This document shows positions 2,711 to 34,931 of a stretch of DNA of 40,196 bases, in pieces. The DNA is from a candidate division Zixibacteria bacterium 4484_95. GTDB lineage: Bacteria > Zixibacteria > MSB-5A5 > UBA10806 > 4484-95. Position 1 is the stretch's first letter, and each line of letters opens with the position of its first letter. The translations under genes were made by a program, and so were the position numbers. The notes beneath the pieces were generated by a model. The model ran no database searches. It was not told the origin of the DNA and worked only from the letters and a program-made list of their open reading frames with translations. Location of the stretch: the NCBI GenBank assembly GCA_002085375.1, contig NATP01000006.1, positions 1-40,196 of the forward strand. Direction: 5' to 3'.

Positions 2711-4063
2711 TTATCTTGATTTACTACCATCCATAAGCTGTTCATAATCCGTAAGAGCTACCTTGTAATCGTAAACCGCTTGAACATAATTCACCCTAGC
2801 CTGCATCAAAGCCAAATCAGCATCATTAACCTCAAGCTGGGTTCCCAAGCCATTGGTATAGCGTGTTCGGGCAATCTCATAACCTAACTCGGCCTGCGCT
2901 ATGGTCTTTGTTCGCCCCTCTATCCTTTTCTTGGCTTGTTCTATCCGATAGATTACGCTTTCAAGCTGTGTTTTAATAGCCTCAGTAAAAGCCTTCCGTC
3001 GCTCCTCAGCCTGGCTTAGACCCAATTTAGCCTGATTTACGCGAGCCATAATTCCAAAGCCGTTGAAAATAGGAACCTGCAATTGTAAACCCACGAACAT
3101 CGTTTTTACCCATGTATAATCTGGAAATTTGAAATCGTTTGATTGTGTTTGATATTGATAATTACCAAATGCCGCAAGCGAAGGGTAGTGTGATGACTTT
3201 TCAAGGGTTATCGCCTCATGTGCCATCTTGATTTGGATATCGAGTTGCCGAAGGTCGGGATTATTTGTCATCACCTCCTCAAGAGCCTTATCAAAAGAGG
3301 GTACTTCAATTGGATTTTCATAGGTTAATTTTCCCTCAATTTCAATCTCCTGGGAAGCTTCCAGTCCGATAGTTATTCTAAGCTTATTTTTAGCAAGCTC
3401 GAAATTGTTCTCCACCTGTAAGACAACGGGCTTGAGATTTTCTACCTGAACTTCAGCACGTATAAGGTCGTATTCGGCCACCAAGCCTTGTTGATGAAGT
3501 TGCCTTACATTTTCAAGGTTCTCTTCAGCATTTTTAAAACTCATCTGAGTCAAATCCCGTACCTCTCCCGCCAGCAACACTCCATAAAACGCTTTTTTCA
3601 CCTCGGCAATAATATTTACCCTTGAACCGTGATAAGCCTCCTCAGCTAATTCAACACCCCGTTTGGATAATCGGATACCCGAATATATGGCATTAGAGAA
3701 CAACGGTAAAGATGCTGAAATTGTTCCAACGTAGGAATTATCAGAACCTATTTCCATAATGGTTGGTTTTCCTCCAACCCCAAACGGAGTCCCGGGAGGA
3801 AGAAATATCACGGGTTTCTCGATGTTTCTCAGATACTGTCCGCTAGCACTTAATTTAGGGAAAAGATAACTCCGTGCCTCTATCAGTTGCGCTTGAGATT
3901 TCTTAACCTCCAATCGGGCAATCCTAACCCCCTGGTTTTTATCAAGGGCGATCTCCAGCGCTTTATCAAGAGTAAGATTTATCGGTTGGCTATCCTTAGA
4001 CCAGGCGTAACCTTGCGTTAATAGTAATCCGATAAGTAAATATGCCCTAATGTTCACCTGCAA
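2711..4063 (-). CDS. TolC-family outer-membrane efflux protein
   Basis: Outer-membrane channel component of a tripartite efflux system. The protein has an N-terminal signal peptide (LLIGLLLTQGYAWS) and then two OEP repeats of long, coiled-coil-forming helices, for example NLTLDKALEIALDKNQGVRI near residue 30 and a matching second repeat starting near 230. Length (450 aa) is typical. The reading frame opens with TTG at 4063, but a GTG at 4057 lies 9 bases after a strong AGGAGG and may be the true start (MNIRAYLLIG...). It lies 77 bp downstream of tetR and 58 bp upstream of the adaptor gene, with no terminator visible between them, so cotranscription is likely. Confidence 0.94.
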   Translation of the reverse strand: MQVNIRAYLLIGLLLTQGYAWSKDSQPINLTLDKALEIALDKNQGVRIARLEVKKSQAQLIEARSYLFPKLSASGQYLRNIEKPVIFLPPGTPFGVGGKPTIMEIGSDNSYVGTISASLPLFSNAIYSGIRLSKRGVELAEEAYHGSRVNIIAEVKKAFYGVLLAGEVRDLTQMSFKNAEENLENVRQLHQQGLVAEYDLIRAEVQVENLKPVVLQVENNFELAKNKLRITIGLEASQEIEIEGKLTYENPIEVPSFDKALEEVMTNNPDLRQLDIQIKMAHEAITLEKSSHYPSLAAFGNYQYQTQSNDFKFPDYTWVKTMFVGLQLQVPIFNGFGIMARVNQAKLGLSQAEERRKAFTEAIKTQLESVIYRIEQAKKRIEGRTKTIAQAELGYEIARTRYTNGLGTQLEVNDADLALMQARVNYVQAVYDYKVALTDYEQLMDGSKSR

Positions 4064-15951: not shown

Positions 15952-16251
15952 CTAATACCTCGAATAACCGCCTCTTTGTCTACCTCTGTTTGAGTCATAA
16001 TTTCTTTGCGGTCGATTTTCACGTGGACGGGCTTCATCAACCTTCAGGGTTCTTCCCTCAAATTCTGAATCGTTTAAAGCCTCTTTGGCTTTTCCAGCCC
16101 CCTCGGGGTTTTCCATTTCAACGAAACCAAATCCTTTATTACCGATTATCGTGACTTCCTTAACATTCCCGTAATTAGAAAACAAATCCTTCAACTGACT
16201 ATCAGATACCGAATAACTTAGATTTCCTACATACAATTTGTTGCCTTGCAT
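15952..16251 (-). CDS. RRM-domain RNA-binding protein (cold-shock Rbp-like)
   Basis: Single-RRM glycine-rich RNA-binding protein of the type common in cyanobacteria and other bacteria, where several are cold-induced. From the ATG at 16251 the 99-aa protein starts MQGNKLYVGNLS. RNP2 is LYVGNL (residues 6-11) and RNP1 is KGFGFVEM (39-46). An Arg/Gly-rich tail (about 80-99) ends GRQRGGYSRY. The frame is open for 38 codons further upstream, but that extension is low-complexity and non-homologous, so 16251 is preferred. A strong terminator follows. The long AT-rich region upstream is compatible with a regulated leader. Confidence 0.93.
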   Translation of the reverse strand: MQGNKLYVGNLSYSVSDSQLKDLFSNYGNVKEVTIIGNKGFGFVEMENPEGAGKAKEALNDSEFEGRTLKVDEARPRENRPQRNYDSNRGRQRGGYSRY

Positions 16252-16297
16252 TTTTCTCTTCTCTTTTCTTTCTTTTCTTCGTTTAAAAAACTTATCC

Positions 16298-16324
16298 TTA
16301 CAGAGAAAGAAGCAAAACAACCAT
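16298..16324 (-). CDS. Possible 8-codon leader ORF ahead of the RRM gene
   Basis: GAGGAG is six bases ahead of ATG at 16324, and the frame reads MVVLLLSL then TAA, ending 46 bp before the RRM start. The ribosome-binding site is stronger than that of the RRM gene itself. A regulatory leader is possible; chance is not excluded. Confidence 0.25.
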   Translation of the reverse strand: MVVLLLSL

Positions 16325-16614
16325 TCTATTCTCCTCAAGAAATACATATTTAAACAAAGATACATTCATTAATAACCTGTTACCAGAATTTATTTAAATA
16401 GTACAACACCTCCTTCCGCATTTTTAGCCTGTTTCAATTATCAACCCTACCTCATAATATAATATACGCATAACTAAATGAAATAGCTATATTTTTCTTG
16501 GCATAAAAAGGAAAAGAGAAAATATCCCCATATTGATCTATGGTGGGCAGGAGTGTGAAGAATGAAGTAAGTTAGCCATACTCATCTACTTAAAATGACA
16601 TTATATGAAAAATA
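16325..16614. other. Intergenic region upstream of the RRM gene
   Basis: AT-rich spacer of about 290 bp. On the minus strand it holds a GGAAGGAGG-like purine run near 16410-16420 with no frame of useful length behind it. No hairpin or gene was recognised. It presumably carries the RRM promoter and part of a long 5' leader. Confidence 0.4.
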
Positions 16615-27936: not shown

Positions 27937-29907
27937 ATGTGTGGTATAGCTGGATATTTTAACATGGGGTTTGAAAGTCAGGCCCAGACCGATTTGATTC
28001 GCAGAATGGTGACTATTTTAAAACATCGAGGTCCTGATGAGTTTGGTGCTTATTTCGACAAACGCTGTGGGCTTGGTCAGGCAAGATTATCCATAATTGA
28101 CCTGGTCGGGGGAAGTCAGCCTATCCATAACGAGGATGAAACCATCTGGATAACTTATAATGGTGAGATATTCAACTATATCGAGCTAGCCGAGGAGCTT
28201 AAAAAAATAGGACACAAGTTTTATACTAATTCCGATACCGAGGTCATAGTCCACGCCTACGAGCAATGGGGTGATGACTGTTTTTCACGTTTCAATGGCC
28301 AGTTCGCTTTCGCCTTATGGGATGGCAAACAGCTTACCTTGGCTCGCGACCGGGTCGGAATCTGCCCTCTTTTTTACACCGTCAGGAACAACCGTTTGTA
28401 TTTCGGCTCGGAGATTAAATCTATATTTTGCGAAGATTCGATCAACAGGGAAATCGATTTAAAGGGTCTGGATGAGATTTTCACCTGGTGGACAACAGCC
28501 TATCCCCGAACCTTTTTTAAAGGTATAAGCGAGCTTCCTCCAGGTCATTACCTGATTGCCTCAGACAATGGAATAAAGATAAAACCTTTCTGGAGGATGA
28601 ATTTCCCTGATAGTTTCGATGATAAACCAGCTGAGTATTGGGCGGAGGCTTTGAAAGAGGAGCTAATCAAAGCCTCACGTTTGCGTCTTCGCGCCGATGT
28701 TCCGGTCGGGGCGTATCTTTCCGGTGGCATCGATTCATCGACAACCACGATTCTCATAAGAAGCTTTTCCAGTGCACCTTTGCAGACATTCTCAGTCGCT
28801 TTTGCCGACGAAGCCTTTGATGAATCTACATATCAGAACCAGATGATAAAACATCTCGGAACACAACATCACCAGACTAAATGCACATATAATGATATCG
28901 TTGAAAATTTCCCGCGGGTACTCTGGCACACCGAAAAACCAATCCTTCGCACTGCTCCTACCCCACTCATGCTTTTATCAGGTCTAGTTCACGACAATAA
29001 TTTCAAGGTTGTCTTAACGGGTGAGGGTGCTGACGAGATACTTGGTGGCTATGATATTTTCAAGGAAACTATCATAAGGGCCTTCTGGGCTAAATACCCC
29101 GATTCCACCTGGCGTCCATCTCTTTTAAGGAAACTTTATCCCACATTGCCACTATCAGGTGCGCGAGCCAAATTATATCTTGAGACTTTTTACAAAATTG
29201 GTCTGAACAAACAGGACAGGTTTTTTTACTCTCATATCCCCCGCATAAACACCACCTCCAAAATCAAGGAATTTTATACCCGGGAGATCCAAGAGACTTT
29301 GGAGGGTTACGATTCGGTGGGTTCATTCAGTAAACATATCCCTATCAATTTCTTCGACTGGCCTACCCTGTGCCGAGCCCAATATCTTGAATCGGCATCG
29401 CTTCTCACAGGTTATCTTTTATCCTCGCAGGGTGACCGGATGGCCATGGCCAACTCAGTTGAAACACGTTTCCCATTCTTGGACACGAATGTAATGGACA
29501 TGGCAGCAAAGATACCGCCCAAATATAAAATCAGGGGGCTGGTGGAAAAGTTCGTGCTAAAAAAAGCAATGAAAAACCTCCTACCCGAAAGGATCCTAAA
29601 CAGGGTGAAACAACCTTATATGGCTCCTGATGCAAAATCATTTTATCAGAAAGACACTCCCGAGTACGTAAACGAGATGTTATCAGAGAGAATGCTTGAA
29701 CGCTACGGTTTATTTAACGTTAAAGCAGTGGCCAAACTTGAGTCCAAGTGCCGAAGATACGCTGATTCATATCTTGGCTTCAAAGACAATATGGCGCTGG
29801 TTGGAATTTTATCCACTCAGATTGTATGTCATACATTTCTTGACGATTTTGCTAAGGTCAAACCTGCTGATAGGGCAAAATTCGCCATCTGGATTGATCG
29901 CTCGTAA
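27937..29907 (+). CDS. asnB: Asparagine synthetase-like glutamine amidotransferase
   Basis: Glutamine-dependent amidotransferase with an N-terminal Ntn-type glutaminase and a C-terminal ATP-dependent synthetase domain. The protein starts MCGIAGYF, with Cys2 as the glutaminase nucleophile. The PP-loop SGGIDSSTTTILIR lies near residue 264 and TGEGADEILGGYD near 362. SQGDRMAMANSVETRFPFLD near 500 completes the family pattern. At 656 aa it is close to the AsnB subgroups found in capsule/EPS and exosortase-A loci. It may make asparagine, but in this context it could amidate a glycan or lipid carboxylate (inference). It lies 125 bp after the epimerase with a weak ribosome-binding site. Confidence 0.92.
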   Translation: MCGIAGYFNMGFESQAQTDLIRRMVTILKHRGPDEFGAYFDKRCGLGQARLSIIDLVGGSQPIHNEDETIWITYNGEIFNYIELAEELKKIGHKFYTNSDTEVIVHAYEQWGDDCFSRFNGQFAFALWDGKQLTLARDRVGICPLFYTVRNNRLYFGSEIKSIFCEDSINREIDLKGLDEIFTWWTTAYPRTFFKGISELPPGHYLIASDNGIKIKPFWRMNFPDSFDDKPAEYWAEALKEELIKASRLRLRADVPVGAYLSGGIDSSTTTILIRSFSSAPLQTFSVAFADEAFDESTYQNQMIKHLGTQHHQTKCTYNDIVENFPRVLWHTEKPILRTAPTPLMLLSGLVHDNNFKVVLTGEGADEILGGYDIFKETIIRAFWAKYPDSTWRPSLLRKLYPTLPLSGARAKLYLETFYKIGLNKQDRFFYSHIPRINTTSKIKEFYTREIQETLEGYDSVGSFSKHIPINFFDWPTLCRAQYLESASLLTGYLLSSQGDRMAMANSVETRFPFLDTNVMDMAAKIPPKYKIRGLVEKFVLKKAMKNLLPERILNRVKQPYMAPDAKSFYQKDTPEYVNEMLSERMLERYGLFNVKAVAKLESKCRRYADSYLGFKDNMALVGILSTQIVCHTFLDDFAKVKPADRAKFAIWIDRS

Positions 29908-29988
29908 TGTATTGGGGTGAAAATCTATTGACCTTGATATAGAAATAGTAATAAAATGTGTTTTTAATAATAAAATAAGGAGAAGGCT

Positions 29989-31314
29989 ATGGCTCGGTCA
30001 AAAGAAGATATATTAAAGTTAATTGATGAAAATGAGATAAAATATATTCGGTTGTGGTTTACCGATATATTGGGCCGTCTTAAAGGAATCAGCATTACCC
30101 GTTCTGAGATTGAAGCCGTATTAGACCATGGACAGGGTTTTGACGGCTCCTCGATTGAAGGATTTGTCCGGATTGAGGAGTCAGACCTTAACGCTATTGC
30201 CGACCTTGATACGTTCACAATATTCCCCTGGAATATCAATTCCGAAAGGGTGGCATTGCTTTTTTGCGATATTCAAACTCCTGATGGAAAGCCATATGAG
30301 GGTGATTCCAGGTATATTTTAAAGAGGATGCTCGACGAGATAGCCCGTGATGGTTACACCGTTTATCTGGGGCCCGAGATGGAGTATTTCTATTTTAAAA
30401 GTTCACAATCTCCCGAGATTATAGACCATGGTGGTTATTTCGACTATGCCACCGTCGATGAATCCACTAAAATGCGAAAAAAAACGGTTACCGCACTTGA
30501 ATCTATAGGTATACAGGTGGAATGTTCACACCACGAGGTAGCACCATCACAACAGGAGATCGACCTAAAGTATCAGGATGCGTTAAGGATGGCTGATTTT
30601 TCCATGATATACCGCTTGGTGGTTAAGGAGATTGCCTTAGCTGAGGGATATTATGCAACCTTTATGCCTAAACCGATATTTGGTGAAAATGGTTCGGGAA
30701 TGCATGTTCATCAGTCGCTCTTCAAAAATGGTAGAAACGCTTTTTTCTCTAAAGATGATACCTATAATCTTTCCGACATCGCAAAAAGTTATATAGCTGG
30801 TCTGTTAAAACATATTAAAGAGATATGTCTGGTGACAAACCAGTGGGTTAACTCATATAAGAGGCTCGTGCCGAATTATGAGGCTCCGGTGTATATCTCC
30901 TGGGGAAGGCGCAATCGTTCCTCGCTGGTGAGGGTTCCGATGTACCGTGTCGGGCGGGAAGAAGCCACCCGTGTCGAACTTAGAAGCCCCGACCCTGCTT
31001 GTAATCCTTACTTAGCCTTTGCCGTTATGATAGCGGCTGGTTACGAGGGGGTTAGAAATGGATATAAGCTTGAAGAGCCGATTGAGGCGAACATCTTCAG
31101 TATGGACCAGAAAAAACGTAAAAGACTACGAATCGATACCCTGCCAGGCTCGCTTGAGAATGCAATCAGTGAATTTAAAAAATCGAGGCTGATGAAACGC
31201 GTTTTAGGCGATCATATATTTGAAAAATTGATCGATAATAAAATAGTAGAATGGGATCAGTACCGGATAGCCGTTACGGGATATGAAATCGATAACTACT
31301 TTCCGGTGCTGTGA
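29989..31314 (+). CDS. glnA: Glutamine synthetase, type I
   Basis: ATP-dependent ligase forming glutamine from glutamate and ammonia. The N-terminal beta-grasp domain is followed by the catalytic domain. Conserved blocks are GFDGSSIEGFVRI near residue 50, GPEMEYFYF near 126, GSGMHVHQSL near 234, NSYKRLVPNYEAPVY near 283 and RVELRSPDPACNPYLAF near 330. Length (441 aa) and the lack of an NLYDLPP-type adenylylation site fit the GSI-alpha type. AAGGAG is a few bases upstream of the ATG. It could be the housekeeping enzyme, or a dedicated glutamine supplier for AsnB in this locus. Directly after its stop codon the same frame continues as half of an acyl carrier protein. Confidence 0.93.
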   Translation: MARSKEDILKLIDENEIKYIRLWFTDILGRLKGISITRSEIEAVLDHGQGFDGSSIEGFVRIEESDLNAIADLDTFTIFPWNINSERVALLFCDIQTPDGKPYEGDSRYILKRMLDEIARDGYTVYLGPEMEYFYFKSSQSPEIIDHGGYFDYATVDESTKMRKKTVTALESIGIQVECSHHEVAPSQQEIDLKYQDALRMADFSMIYRLVVKEIALAEGYYATFMPKPIFGENGSGMHVHQSLFKNGRNAFFSKDDTYNLSDIAKSYIAGLLKHIKEICLVTNQWVNSYKRLVPNYEAPVYISWGRRNRSSLVRVPMYRVGREEATRVELRSPDPACNPYLAFAVMIAAGYEGVRNGYKLEEPIEANIFSMDQKKRKRLRIDTLPGSLENAISEFKKSRLMKRVLGDHIFEKLIDNKIVEWDQYRIAVTGYEIDNYFPVL

Positions 31315-31440
31315 TTAGAACTGGTAAGTTTTATCGAGGAGACATACGGCTTTACTGTTGAGGATGATGAGCTTGTGCCGGAAAACCTCGACTCGGTAAA
31401 CAAGTTGGTTAATTACATAAACAGGAAAAGGCAACATTAG
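31315..31440 (+). pseudogene. C-terminal half of an acyl carrier protein (N-terminus and phosphopantetheine Ser missing)
   Basis: Directly after the glnA stop, in the same frame, 41 codons read LELVSFIEETYGFTVEDDEL and continue with PENLDSVNKLVNYINRKRQH before a TAG. This is the helix II end to helix IV of an acyl/peptidyl carrier protein. The usual first 40 residues, including the DS(L/T) serine that carries phosphopantetheine, are absent, and no start codon or ribosome-binding site is seen. It sits just before an acyl ligase gene, where XrtA-type loci have an intact carrier. A deletion joining the glnA end to the middle of the ACP gene would explain it; an assembly join is also possible. 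Confidence 0.75.
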
Positions 31441-31456
31441 TGCAGGAACGAAGCGT

Positions 31457-32998
31457 ATGTTAGTTCATCACTTCCTTGAGGAAAACGCTGAAAGGTTTCC
31501 ATACAAGGATGCTGCTATTCAATTGGGAGGCAGAATAAGTTACCTGGAACTGGAAGCGGCTGCCAATCGCCTTGCCAATACCCTCATAGATCTGGGTATC
31601 AAATCTGGTGACAGGGTCGGTATCCTTATGGAATCATCCATCAAATACATTATAGCTTATTTTGGTATATTGAAAGCAGGTGCTATTGTGGTTGGGCTAA
31701 ATACTCAGAGCGCTATCAGAAATTTTCGCAATACTTTGAGAGATTGCCAGGTTTCAGGTTTGATAATTAACAAAAATATGGCTCATATCGTTAAAGAAAT
31801 ATACGCCGATCTGCCATCTTTAAACTTCGTCGTCAGTGAGAGTTCATATAGCCATTTTCCCAAGGATGTCGAGGTTGTTTTCCTGCTAGATGCCCAGCTT
31901 AAGGGTGACCCATCAAGGCCTGCCGTGGCTATCAAGGAAGATGATATCGCCCAGATAATCTACACATCGGGCACAACTGGCTCACCCAAAGGAGTATCTC
32001 TTTCCCATAAGAACCTTTATGCCAATACTTCATCCATAGTAAAATATCTTGACCTAAAACCCGATGACAGGGTGATGGCTATATTACCGTTTTTCTATTC
32101 CTATGGCAATTCGCTATTATTAACTCATATGTATTGCGGTGGTAGTGTAGTTATCGATAACAGGTTCGCCTATCCGAACATAATACTTGATATAATGGCC
32201 CAGGAAAGAGTCACCGGCTTTTCCGGAGTACCATCAACCTTTGCCATTCTAATGCACAAATCGAATATACACAATTACCGTTTTGAACATTTGCGATACA
32301 TCACCCAGGCTGGCGGGCCTATGTCACCAGCGTTGACTCAAAAGATCATGGAGGTTATGCCCCATATAAAGATATTCATCATGTATGGTCAAACCGAGGC
32401 GTCAGCCAGATTGTCTTATCTGGAACCTGATAAACTCTTGGAGAAGATTGGCTCGATCGGTAAAGCCATACCTGGAGTCAAACTTACTGTTAAGGATGAA
32501 AAAGGAAAGGTGTGTAGACCTGGTGAGGTCGGCGAAATCATCGCCTCTGGAGATAACATCATGGTTGGTTACTGGAACCAGCCTGAGGAGACTAAAAAAG
32601 TTCTCAAGGAGGATGGCCTTCACACCGGTGACTTAGCCAAAACTGATGAGGATGGCTATCTGTATATAGTCAGCAGACGCTCGGATATGATAAAAAGCGG
32701 AGCCCATCGTATATCCCCCAAAGAAATAGAGGAGGTTCTGGCAGAATTCCCGTCGATTATCGAATCGGCGGTAATCGGCGTACCGGATAAAATCCTGGGC
32801 GAGTCTCTTGTTGCTTTTATTGTACCAAACGGAAAAATCGATACCAAAGAGCTGAAGAAACATCTTCGGTTGAATCTGGCGGTTTTTAAAATTCCCAGGG
32901 AATTCATCCAAGTGAAATCTCTTCCAAAAACTTCATCTGGTAAGATAAAAAGATTCGAGCTTGTTGAAAAATATAAAATGAAAGCGAAGACATCATGA
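31457..32998 (+). CDS. AMP-forming acyl-CoA/acyl-ACP ligase
   Basis: ANL-superfamily enzyme that activates a carboxylic acid as acyl-adenylate and transfers it to CoA or a carrier thiol. Motifs are present in order: IIYTSGTTGSPKGVSLSHKN (P-loop, near residue 170), MYGQTEAS near 310, HTGDLAKTDEDGYLYIVSRR near 390 and the catalytic-Lys tail KTSSGKIKR near 500. Length (513 aa) is normal. It resembles ligases of exosortase-A loci, which in those systems work with a neighbouring ACP; here that ACP is truncated. The next gene overlaps its stop (ATGA). Substrate is unknown. Confidence 0.9.
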   Translation: MLVHHFLEENAERFPYKDAAIQLGGRISYLELEAAANRLANTLIDLGIKSGDRVGILMESSIKYIIAYFGILKAGAIVVGLNTQSAIRNFRNTLRDCQVSGLIINKNMAHIVKEIYADLPSLNFVVSESSYSHFPKDVEVVFLLDAQLKGDPSRPAVAIKEDDIAQIIYTSGTTGSPKGVSLSHKNLYANTSSIVKYLDLKPDDRVMAILPFFYSYGNSLLLTHMYCGGSVVIDNRFAYPNIILDIMAQERVTGFSGVPSTFAILMHKSNIHNYRFEHLRYITQAGGPMSPALTQKIMEVMPHIKIFIMYGQTEASARLSYLEPDKLLEKIGSIGKAIPGVKLTVKDEKGKVCRPGEVGEIIASGDNIMVGYWNQPEETKKVLKEDGLHTGDLAKTDEDGYLYIVSRRSDMIKSGAHRISPKEIEEVLAEFPSIIESAVIGVPDKILGESLVAFIVPNGKIDTKELKKHLRLNLAVFKIPREFIQVKSLPKTSSGKIKRFELVEKYKMKAKTS

Positions 32999-33963
32999 CA
33001 TATTCTATTGATGCTTTGAAGCTCGATTGCCCGAAGGTTGTTGAGGAACTGGTAAAGGTTTTACAGCACCAGGTTTATATCTTGTTAAAACGTGCCGGCG
33101 CAATAGTCGGAACCTCAGGAGGAATCGACTCATCGGTTGTGGCCGGTCTTTGCGCAAAGGCTTTTAGCCCTAAGAAGATGATGGGAATTATAATGCCTGA
33201 TAAGGATTCATCATCGGAATCGACAGATATGGCCATAGAACTTGCCAAGACTTTTGGCTATGAATACATCGTTAACGACGTTACAACAGCCCTTGAGGGC
33301 GCGGGATGTTATCGTCTACGCGATGAGGCTATTCGAAAGGTTTTCCCCGAATACAAAGAGGGTTGGAGGGCAAAGATCGTTTTACCTACCAACATCCTCG
33401 AGAAAAACCGTTTTAACATATTCAGACTTACGGTTACTCCTCCCGGGGGACAACCCATGACAAAACGTCTCCCCTTGAAAGAGTATTTGCAGATCGTGGC
33501 TGCCTCGAATATGAAACAACGTATCCGGATGCTTACTCTTTATTATCATGCCGAAAGGTTAAATTATGCCGTTATAGGCACCGGCAATAAAAACGAACAT
33601 GACCAGGGGTTTTTCGTCAAATACGGTGATGGAGGAGCTGACTGTAAACCGATTGCCCATTTATTTAAAACGCAGGTTTTCCAGCTCGGGGAATTCCTCG
33701 GCGTCCCAAAATCGATTCAGAATCGCATACCGACAACCGATACTTACCCCGATGAACAGACGCAAGAGGAATTCTTTTTCGGTTTGGAATTTAAGATTAT
33801 GGACTTATTGTGGTTTGCCAAGGAAAACAATGTGCCAATTGATGAGGTTTCAAAGACAACAGATTTAAATCCCGAGCAGGTGCAGAGAGTCTGGAATGAC
33901 CTTGACCAAAAAAAAAGAACCACTGAATATCTGAGAATGCATCCATTGATGGTTATAAGATAA
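32995..33963 (+). CDS. NadE-like, ammonia-type NAD+ synthase family protein
   Basis: PP-loop ATPase of the NAD synthase family, which adenylates a carboxylate and converts it to an amide. The PP-loop is VGTSGGIDSSVVAGL near residue 39, and VIGTGNKNEHDQGFFVKYGD near 196 is the conserved substrate region. No glutaminase domain is attached, so ammonia would come from elsewhere. At 322 aa it is longer than housekeeping NadE (about 275). The usual PSADLWPGQTDE loop reads PTTDTYPDEQTQEE, and an extra segment lies near 140-165. Overlap with the ligase stop (ATGA) shows it belongs to the glycan locus. It may amidate a pathway intermediate rather than NaAD; that is inference. Confidence 0.85.
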   Translation: MTYSIDALKLDCPKVVEELVKVLQHQVYILLKRAGAIVGTSGGIDSSVVAGLCAKAFSPKKMMGIIMPDKDSSSESTDMAIELAKTFGYEYIVNDVTTALEGAGCYRLRDEAIRKVFPEYKEGWRAKIVLPTNILEKNRFNIFRLTVTPPGGQPMTKRLPLKEYLQIVAASNMKQRIRMLTLYYHAERLNYAVIGTGNKNEHDQGFFVKYGDGGADCKPIAHLFKTQVFQLGEFLGVPKSIQNRIPTTDTYPDEQTQEEFFFGLEFKIMDLLWFAKENNVPIDEVSKTTDLNPEQVQRVWNDLDQKKRTTEYLRMHPLMVIR

Positions 33964-34067: not shown

Positions 34068-34931
34068 ATGTTCTCCAAGATGAAAAACGTTCTAAGCTTT
34101 GATGTAGAGGATTATTTTCAGGTTACAGGCATGGAGCCAATAGTTAGTCGCGATGACTGGGAAATATATCCATCAAGGGTGGAACAGAATACACAAAAAG
34201 TGCTTGAAATTCTCGGTCGCCATAATGTCAGAACCACCTTTTTTATCCTTGGCTGGACAGCGAAAAGACATAAGCAACTGATAAAACAAATAGCTAATTC
34301 GGGACATGAAATCGCCTGCCATGGTTATAATCACAGGCTTGTCTATGACATGACGAACGATGAATTTATCTCGGATATCAAACGGGCTATAAACTTATTA
34401 GAGGATATTACAGGCCAAAAAATATATGGCTTTCGGGCGCCAAGCTTTTCGCTCGATGCTGACGATATCGAAAAGTTCGAGATGATGGCCGAGCTTGGTT
34501 TGAAATATGACTCCTCACTTTTTCCGGTAAGACACTTCCGTTACGGCAAAACCGGACAGATCCCCCTTGTACCATTCGACATAAAGAAAGGTGACCGGGT
34601 TGTAATAAAAGAGTTTCCCATAACAGTTGTAAATTTTCTGGGGAAACGAATACCTGCCGGAGGAGGGGGTTATTTCCGCCTATATCCGAACTTCTTCATT
34701 CGCCACAATTTCAAAAAGGTCAATGCTGAAGGCCGGCCGGTGATAATATACCTTCACCCATGGGAACTTGACCCGGACCAACCACGGATAAAAGGGATTG
34801 GGCTTGGAAACGCTTTCAGGCATTACTTGAACCTGAGTAAAACCCAATCCAGGCTGGAGATGATTTTACAGGAATTCGAGTTCGAATCCTTTGTTGGATT
34901 GATAAATAACATGAAATTCGATAAGTGTTGA
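34068..34931 (+). CDS. Polysaccharide deacetylase, DUF3473/XrtA-associated type
   Basis: NodB-homology (CE4) deacetylase expected to remove N-acetyl groups from a surface polysaccharide. It starts MKNVLSFDVEDYFQVTGMEP (from an ATG at 34080; 34068 adds four residues), the hallmark start of the subgroup found in PEP-CTERM/exosortase loci. Further motifs are TTFFILGW, HEIACHGYNHRLVYDM (metal-binding His pair), YGFRAPSFSLD and YDSSLFPV. The C-terminal HPWELDPDQPRIKG block is that of DUF3473. The 287-aa length is typical. It sits 104 bp after the NadE-like gene, so it may be transcribed separately. No signal peptide is seen, which is normal for this subgroup. Confidence 0.9.
   Translation: MFSKMKNVLSFDVEDYFQVTGMEPIVSRDDWEIYPSRVEQNTQKVLEILGRHNVRTTFFILGWTAKRHKQLIKQIANSGHEIACHGYNHRLVYDMTNDEFISDIKRAINLLEDITGQKIYGFRAPSFSLDADDIEKFEMMAELGLKYDSSLFPVRHFRYGKTGQIPLVPFDIKKGDRVVIKEFPITVVNFLGKRIPAGGGGYFRLYPNFFIRHNFKKVNAEGRPVIIYLHPWELDPDQPRIKGIGLGNAFRHYLNLSKTQSRLEMILQEFEFESFVGLINNMKFDKC

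Follow-up and report, generated by a model that had tools for sequence, protein, structure and literature searches.

The window, i.e., the whole stretch of 40,196 nucleotides analysed here, carries on its forward strand a row of intact genes interrupted by a truncated one. On the upstream side lie an asparagine synthase-type amidotransferase of 656 aa (27937–29907; above the TIGR01536 cut-off) and glnA, a type I glutamine synthetase of 441 aa (29989–31314; TIGR00653, 506.6 bits against a cut-off of 429.15) that terminates with TGA at 31312–31314. On the downstream side are an AMP-forming acyl ligase of 513 aa (31457–32998; PF00501 and PF13193, with TIGR03098 below its cut-off, 393.5/592), a NAD synthase-like gene of the PRK00876 subfamily (32995–33963; NF002048, 443.6 against a cut-off of 313) and a polysaccharide deacetylase of the XrtA-system type (34068–34931; TIGR03006, 342.7 against a cut-off of 276.2). 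Apart from the glnA at 29989–31314, which is situated in a polysaccharide locus, the contigs of this genome contain no complete glutamine synthetase gene, a partial one being present at the edge of contig C3. An RNA recognition motif (PF00076, 76 bits) occurs in a 137-aa protein encoded elsewhere in the window, at 15952–16365.

The truncated element occupies 31315–31440 of the forward strand and, to judge from its translation, the intact acyl carrier proteins (ACPs) of relatives and the comparison of full frames, is clearly the C-terminal half of an ACP, left as a putative pseudogene remnant. The translation of 31195–31443 reads ...YEIDNYFPVL, a stop, LELVSFIEETYGFTVEDDELVPENLDSVNKLVNYINRKRQH and a second stop. 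The 41 codons of the stub (31315–31437) thus follow the TGA of glnA directly and in the same frame, as originally predicted, and end with TAG at 31438–31440; the ligase starts with ATG at 31457 after a gap of 16 bases, the distance that had also been predicted. The head of the stub has neither a start codon nor a ribosome-binding site, helix I or the DSTGV serine motif; its first residue is the one directly following DSTGV in the relatives, and the serine that would carry phosphopantetheine is absent. The earlier claim that start codon, ribosome-binding site and serine are all missing is therefore correct for the head of the stub and has to be amended for its interior, where in-frame GTG (31375) and TTG (31405) codons occur deep inside, too far down to be of use, their potential products having only ~21 and ~11 residues. 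The sole other candidate near the head is CTG 31321 and, as read from the DNA, the stub has no usable start codon. Lacking serine, first helix and start alike, it cannot serve as a carrier.

The identity of the stub is supported by several comparisons. Used as a query against 57 relatives (no congener, three members of the same family), its 41 residues yielded 31 matches outside its own genome, distributed over 24 of these relatives, the best having 74% identity and an E value of 9e-17, so that on sequence the likeness to ACPs is far beyond chance; compared with eight intact relatives the identity is 55–76%. The Pfam PP-binding profile (PF00550) gives 13.5 bits versus a gathering score of 20.8, because only half a domain is present: the match is confined to profile positions 36–67 of 67, i.e., to the C-terminal half from the remainder of helix II to helix IV, whose conserved residues are there, whereas the whole-domain score is not reached and the serine of the DSx motif that carries 4′-phosphopantetheine is lacking. 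Likewise, the stub covers positions 43–82 of 83 of NF052616 (ACP_for_OlsHI) and positions 42–79 of 80 of NF058660 (AmcB; E 1.2e-7, below the family cut-off). Among curated ACP families the latter, the ACP of cispentacin, gives the stub its highest score, and in that system AmcH, the partner ligase, transfers its substrate onto AmcB through adenylation (PMC10698177). This is the same kind of ACP–ligase pairing as that inferred for the window, whose acyl ligase is presumed to be the loader of the carrier. The two pathways are different. Not only the stub but also the intact ACPs of the relatives fall below the NF058660 cut-off, and no ketosynthase pair is seen beside the ACP of the window. For the intact ACPs of the relatives the best-scoring family is instead ACP_for_OlsHI, the ornithine lipid ACP, yet their 55–65 bits are well under its cut-off of 130 bits.

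The arrangement from which the stub would derive is found in the Zixibacteria genome closest in layout, that of a same-family relative, Candidatus Zixiibacteriota MAG AS27yjCOA_100 (G002; JAAYTW010000025.1), in which the order is wecB, sdr (a sugar dehydratase), glnA, an intact ACP, the ligase and nadE. The window has the same genes around the stub, with asnB in addition between the dehydratase and glnA, and the neighbouring genes of the two genomes are 72–77% identical. The G002 ACP, located in the same place between glnA and ligase–nadE, is complete, with 82 aa, a TTG start and a serine motif of the DSTGV type, and is 71% identical to the stub over the 38 residues that they share; only its second half has a counterpart in the window. 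An intact ACP between glnA and the ligase, which the original prediction had proposed to look for in related genomes, therefore exists. The C-terminus of glnA, which had been judged normal, proves to be so, since the full-length protein is 76% identical to its G002 relative with 441/441 residues aligned and the same final residue; the ligase is 77% identical to that of G002 over residues 1–512. On the G002 contig the glnA stop lies at 3030–3032 and the LELV codons, which follow the serine motif, at 2886; all of the 143 bases between them are absent from the window, where the corresponding junction falls at 31312–31320 of the forward strand. The predicted removal of some 40 ACP codons together with the spacer is supported by this finding. 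The description of the product as a fusion in frame is not: the TGA of glnA (31312–31314) stands intact between the two frames and there is no continuous frame such as a gene fusion would display. Furthermore, since 143 is not a multiple of 3, a shared frame has a one-in-three chance of arising, and the coincidence with the frame of glnA is probably fortuitous.

The shared frame beyond the TGA and the intact residues could also be read as signs that the stub works, be it as a readthrough extension of the glutamine synthetase, as part of a split carrier or as a small protein made from an unusual start. This reading is extremely improbable in view of the missing helix I and prosthetic-group serine, of a choice of starts limited to CTG 31321 or the remote GTG 31375, of the failure to find the other half in the contigs of the genome and of an arrangement encountered in none of the relatives. 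The start-codon, readthrough and split-carrier variants were each considered and rejected, having no support in the sequence or in the full frames of the relatives. Indeed, at all 31 matches outside the window genome the open frame has at least 83 codons and a short frame like that of the stub, which the original prediction had regarded as telling against it if kept in relatives under purifying selection, is found at none of these matches in the 24 relatives; in 19/19 relative loci read there is a serine motif of the type IIDSTGV or IVDSTGV/I, with DSTGV/DSTGI ahead of LELV.

The ACP is regularly accompanied by the same partners. It lies intact directly ahead of ligase and nadE in G001, G003 and G004 and directly ahead of nadE in G005, G007 and G008, the asparagine synthase-type amidotransferase adjoining it in G001, G003, G005 and G007. 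Within the class it is present in 22/22 relatives possessing the PRK00876-type NAD synthase, its most faithful companion, whereas a weak ACP match is seen in only 2/35 of those that lack this synthase; a carrier found with the synthase in every case and nearly absent otherwise forms part of the module, and among the genomes compared the pairing is broken in the window alone. At 27937–33963 of the window and in loci L025–L032, the ACP of the DSTGV type and the NAD synthase of the PRK00876 type are commonly joined by an AMP ligase and by a gene resembling asparagine synthase or glutamine synthetase. When GTDB species genomes were searched with a view to finding the ligase in a closer relative, only G001, G002 and one distant locus were returned.

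With an intact orthologue in the corresponding place, one part missing and the remainder in an unusable frame, the locus has the features of a pseudogene produced by deletion, and it is fairly probable that a recent deletion disabled the ACP of an ACP–ligase–NadE module within a polysaccharide locus. The event would have removed ~145 bp (the G002 comparison gives 143), namely the glnA–ACP spacer together with the start of the ACP and its first ~40 codons, the one for the phosphopantetheine-carrying serine among them, and would have left an untranslated C-terminal stub devoid of function between intact glnA and intact ligase; the latter can still be translated, having a weak ribosome-binding site of its own (AGGAA) ahead of ATG 31457. 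A short microhomology at the junction may have been involved, a possible candidate being TTA or TTAG, which also occurs in the G002 spacer.

If real, the event must be young. At all 10 positions where the other 19 sequences show no variation the stub agrees with them, and only one of its residues is seen nowhere else, against an average of 1.5 in intact relatives. For changes at codon positions 1+2 relative to position 3, the ratio is 0.21–0.37 in the stub, no higher than the 0.23–0.50 obtained between intact genes, and simulations speak against a neutral drift of more than ~0.05 substitutions per site (P about 0.05). This lack of decay means that the break is either recent or absent from the organism. 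In the latter case the ACP would be intact in the cell and ~145 bases would have dropped out where sequences were joined or a gap was closed, or the allele of a minority strain would have been assembled. An undecayed stub with undecayed neighbours is equally what an assembly or consensus error would give, every relative carrying the module has the ACP in intact form, and the genome (2.17 Mb) is a draft of 159 contigs that is 84.9% complete. On the other hand, the window is free of Ns, and of the words that span the junction none longer than 9 bases recurs in it, so that a k-mer or overlap collapse is without an obvious substrate; moreover, genuine coding sequence reaches the break from either side and a false join based on overlap would thus need a long repeat shared by spacer and ACP, which is seen in no relative. 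An artefact is accordingly regarded as unlikely, the ordinary deletion pseudogene is distinctly favoured over it, and we infer that the deletion occurred in the organism and not in the assembly alone.

Given a deletion in the organism, it may be asked what serves the ligase. The original prediction had suggested a search for a stand-alone ACP of the same subtype. A full ACP query of the contigs (84.9% complete) matched only the stub and AcpP, the fatty-acid ACP of contig C105, whose identity to the lost type is no more than 25%. The N-terminal ACP half found no match in the same contigs, although this query gave matches in 5/5 control relatives; a second copy may reside in the unassembled 15%. 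No member of the AcpS transferase family was found in the genome either, a negative without weight at 84.9% completeness. As a sub-case of the deletion, whose probability is not to be added to that of the latter, the loss could be tolerated because AcpP or such a second dedicated ACP serves the ligase. AcpP is present, the ligase is intact and some relatives have several such ACPs (e.g., six matches in G006), but the low identity of AcpP, the occurrence of one dedicated ACP in each of the three same-family relatives and a stub too fresh to reveal long-term tolerance make this outcome rather doubtful. It is quite improbable that the lineage has stably discarded the dedicated carrier while keeping the rest of the conserved ACP–ligase–NadE–amidotransferase module, with a ligase that uses AcpP, CoA or a free acyl-adenylate.

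The pathway affected probably represents a modification step belonging to a polysaccharide locus of the exosortase type, a reading based on the deacetylase, which passes the XrtA-system cut-off, on the ligase, which resembles TIGR03098 below its cut-off, and on the presence of an exosortase in the genome. The exosortase and a second, partial exosortase match are located on contigs C110 (3092–3856) and C152 (568–999), respectively, and fit the XrtA-type genes of the window. For annotation, the stub should be labelled as a pseudogene or as suspect assembly, and this carrier should not be listed among the proteins of the genome. The module has likely lost its dedicated carrier here, so that the pathway would be either non-functional or dependent on another carrier. 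No description of an ACP–NAD synthase module was found in the literature searched, and the co-occurrence of ACP and NAD synthase, usually with ligase and amidotransferase, suggests that an amide- or acyl-transfer step not described so far takes place in a polysaccharide locus.
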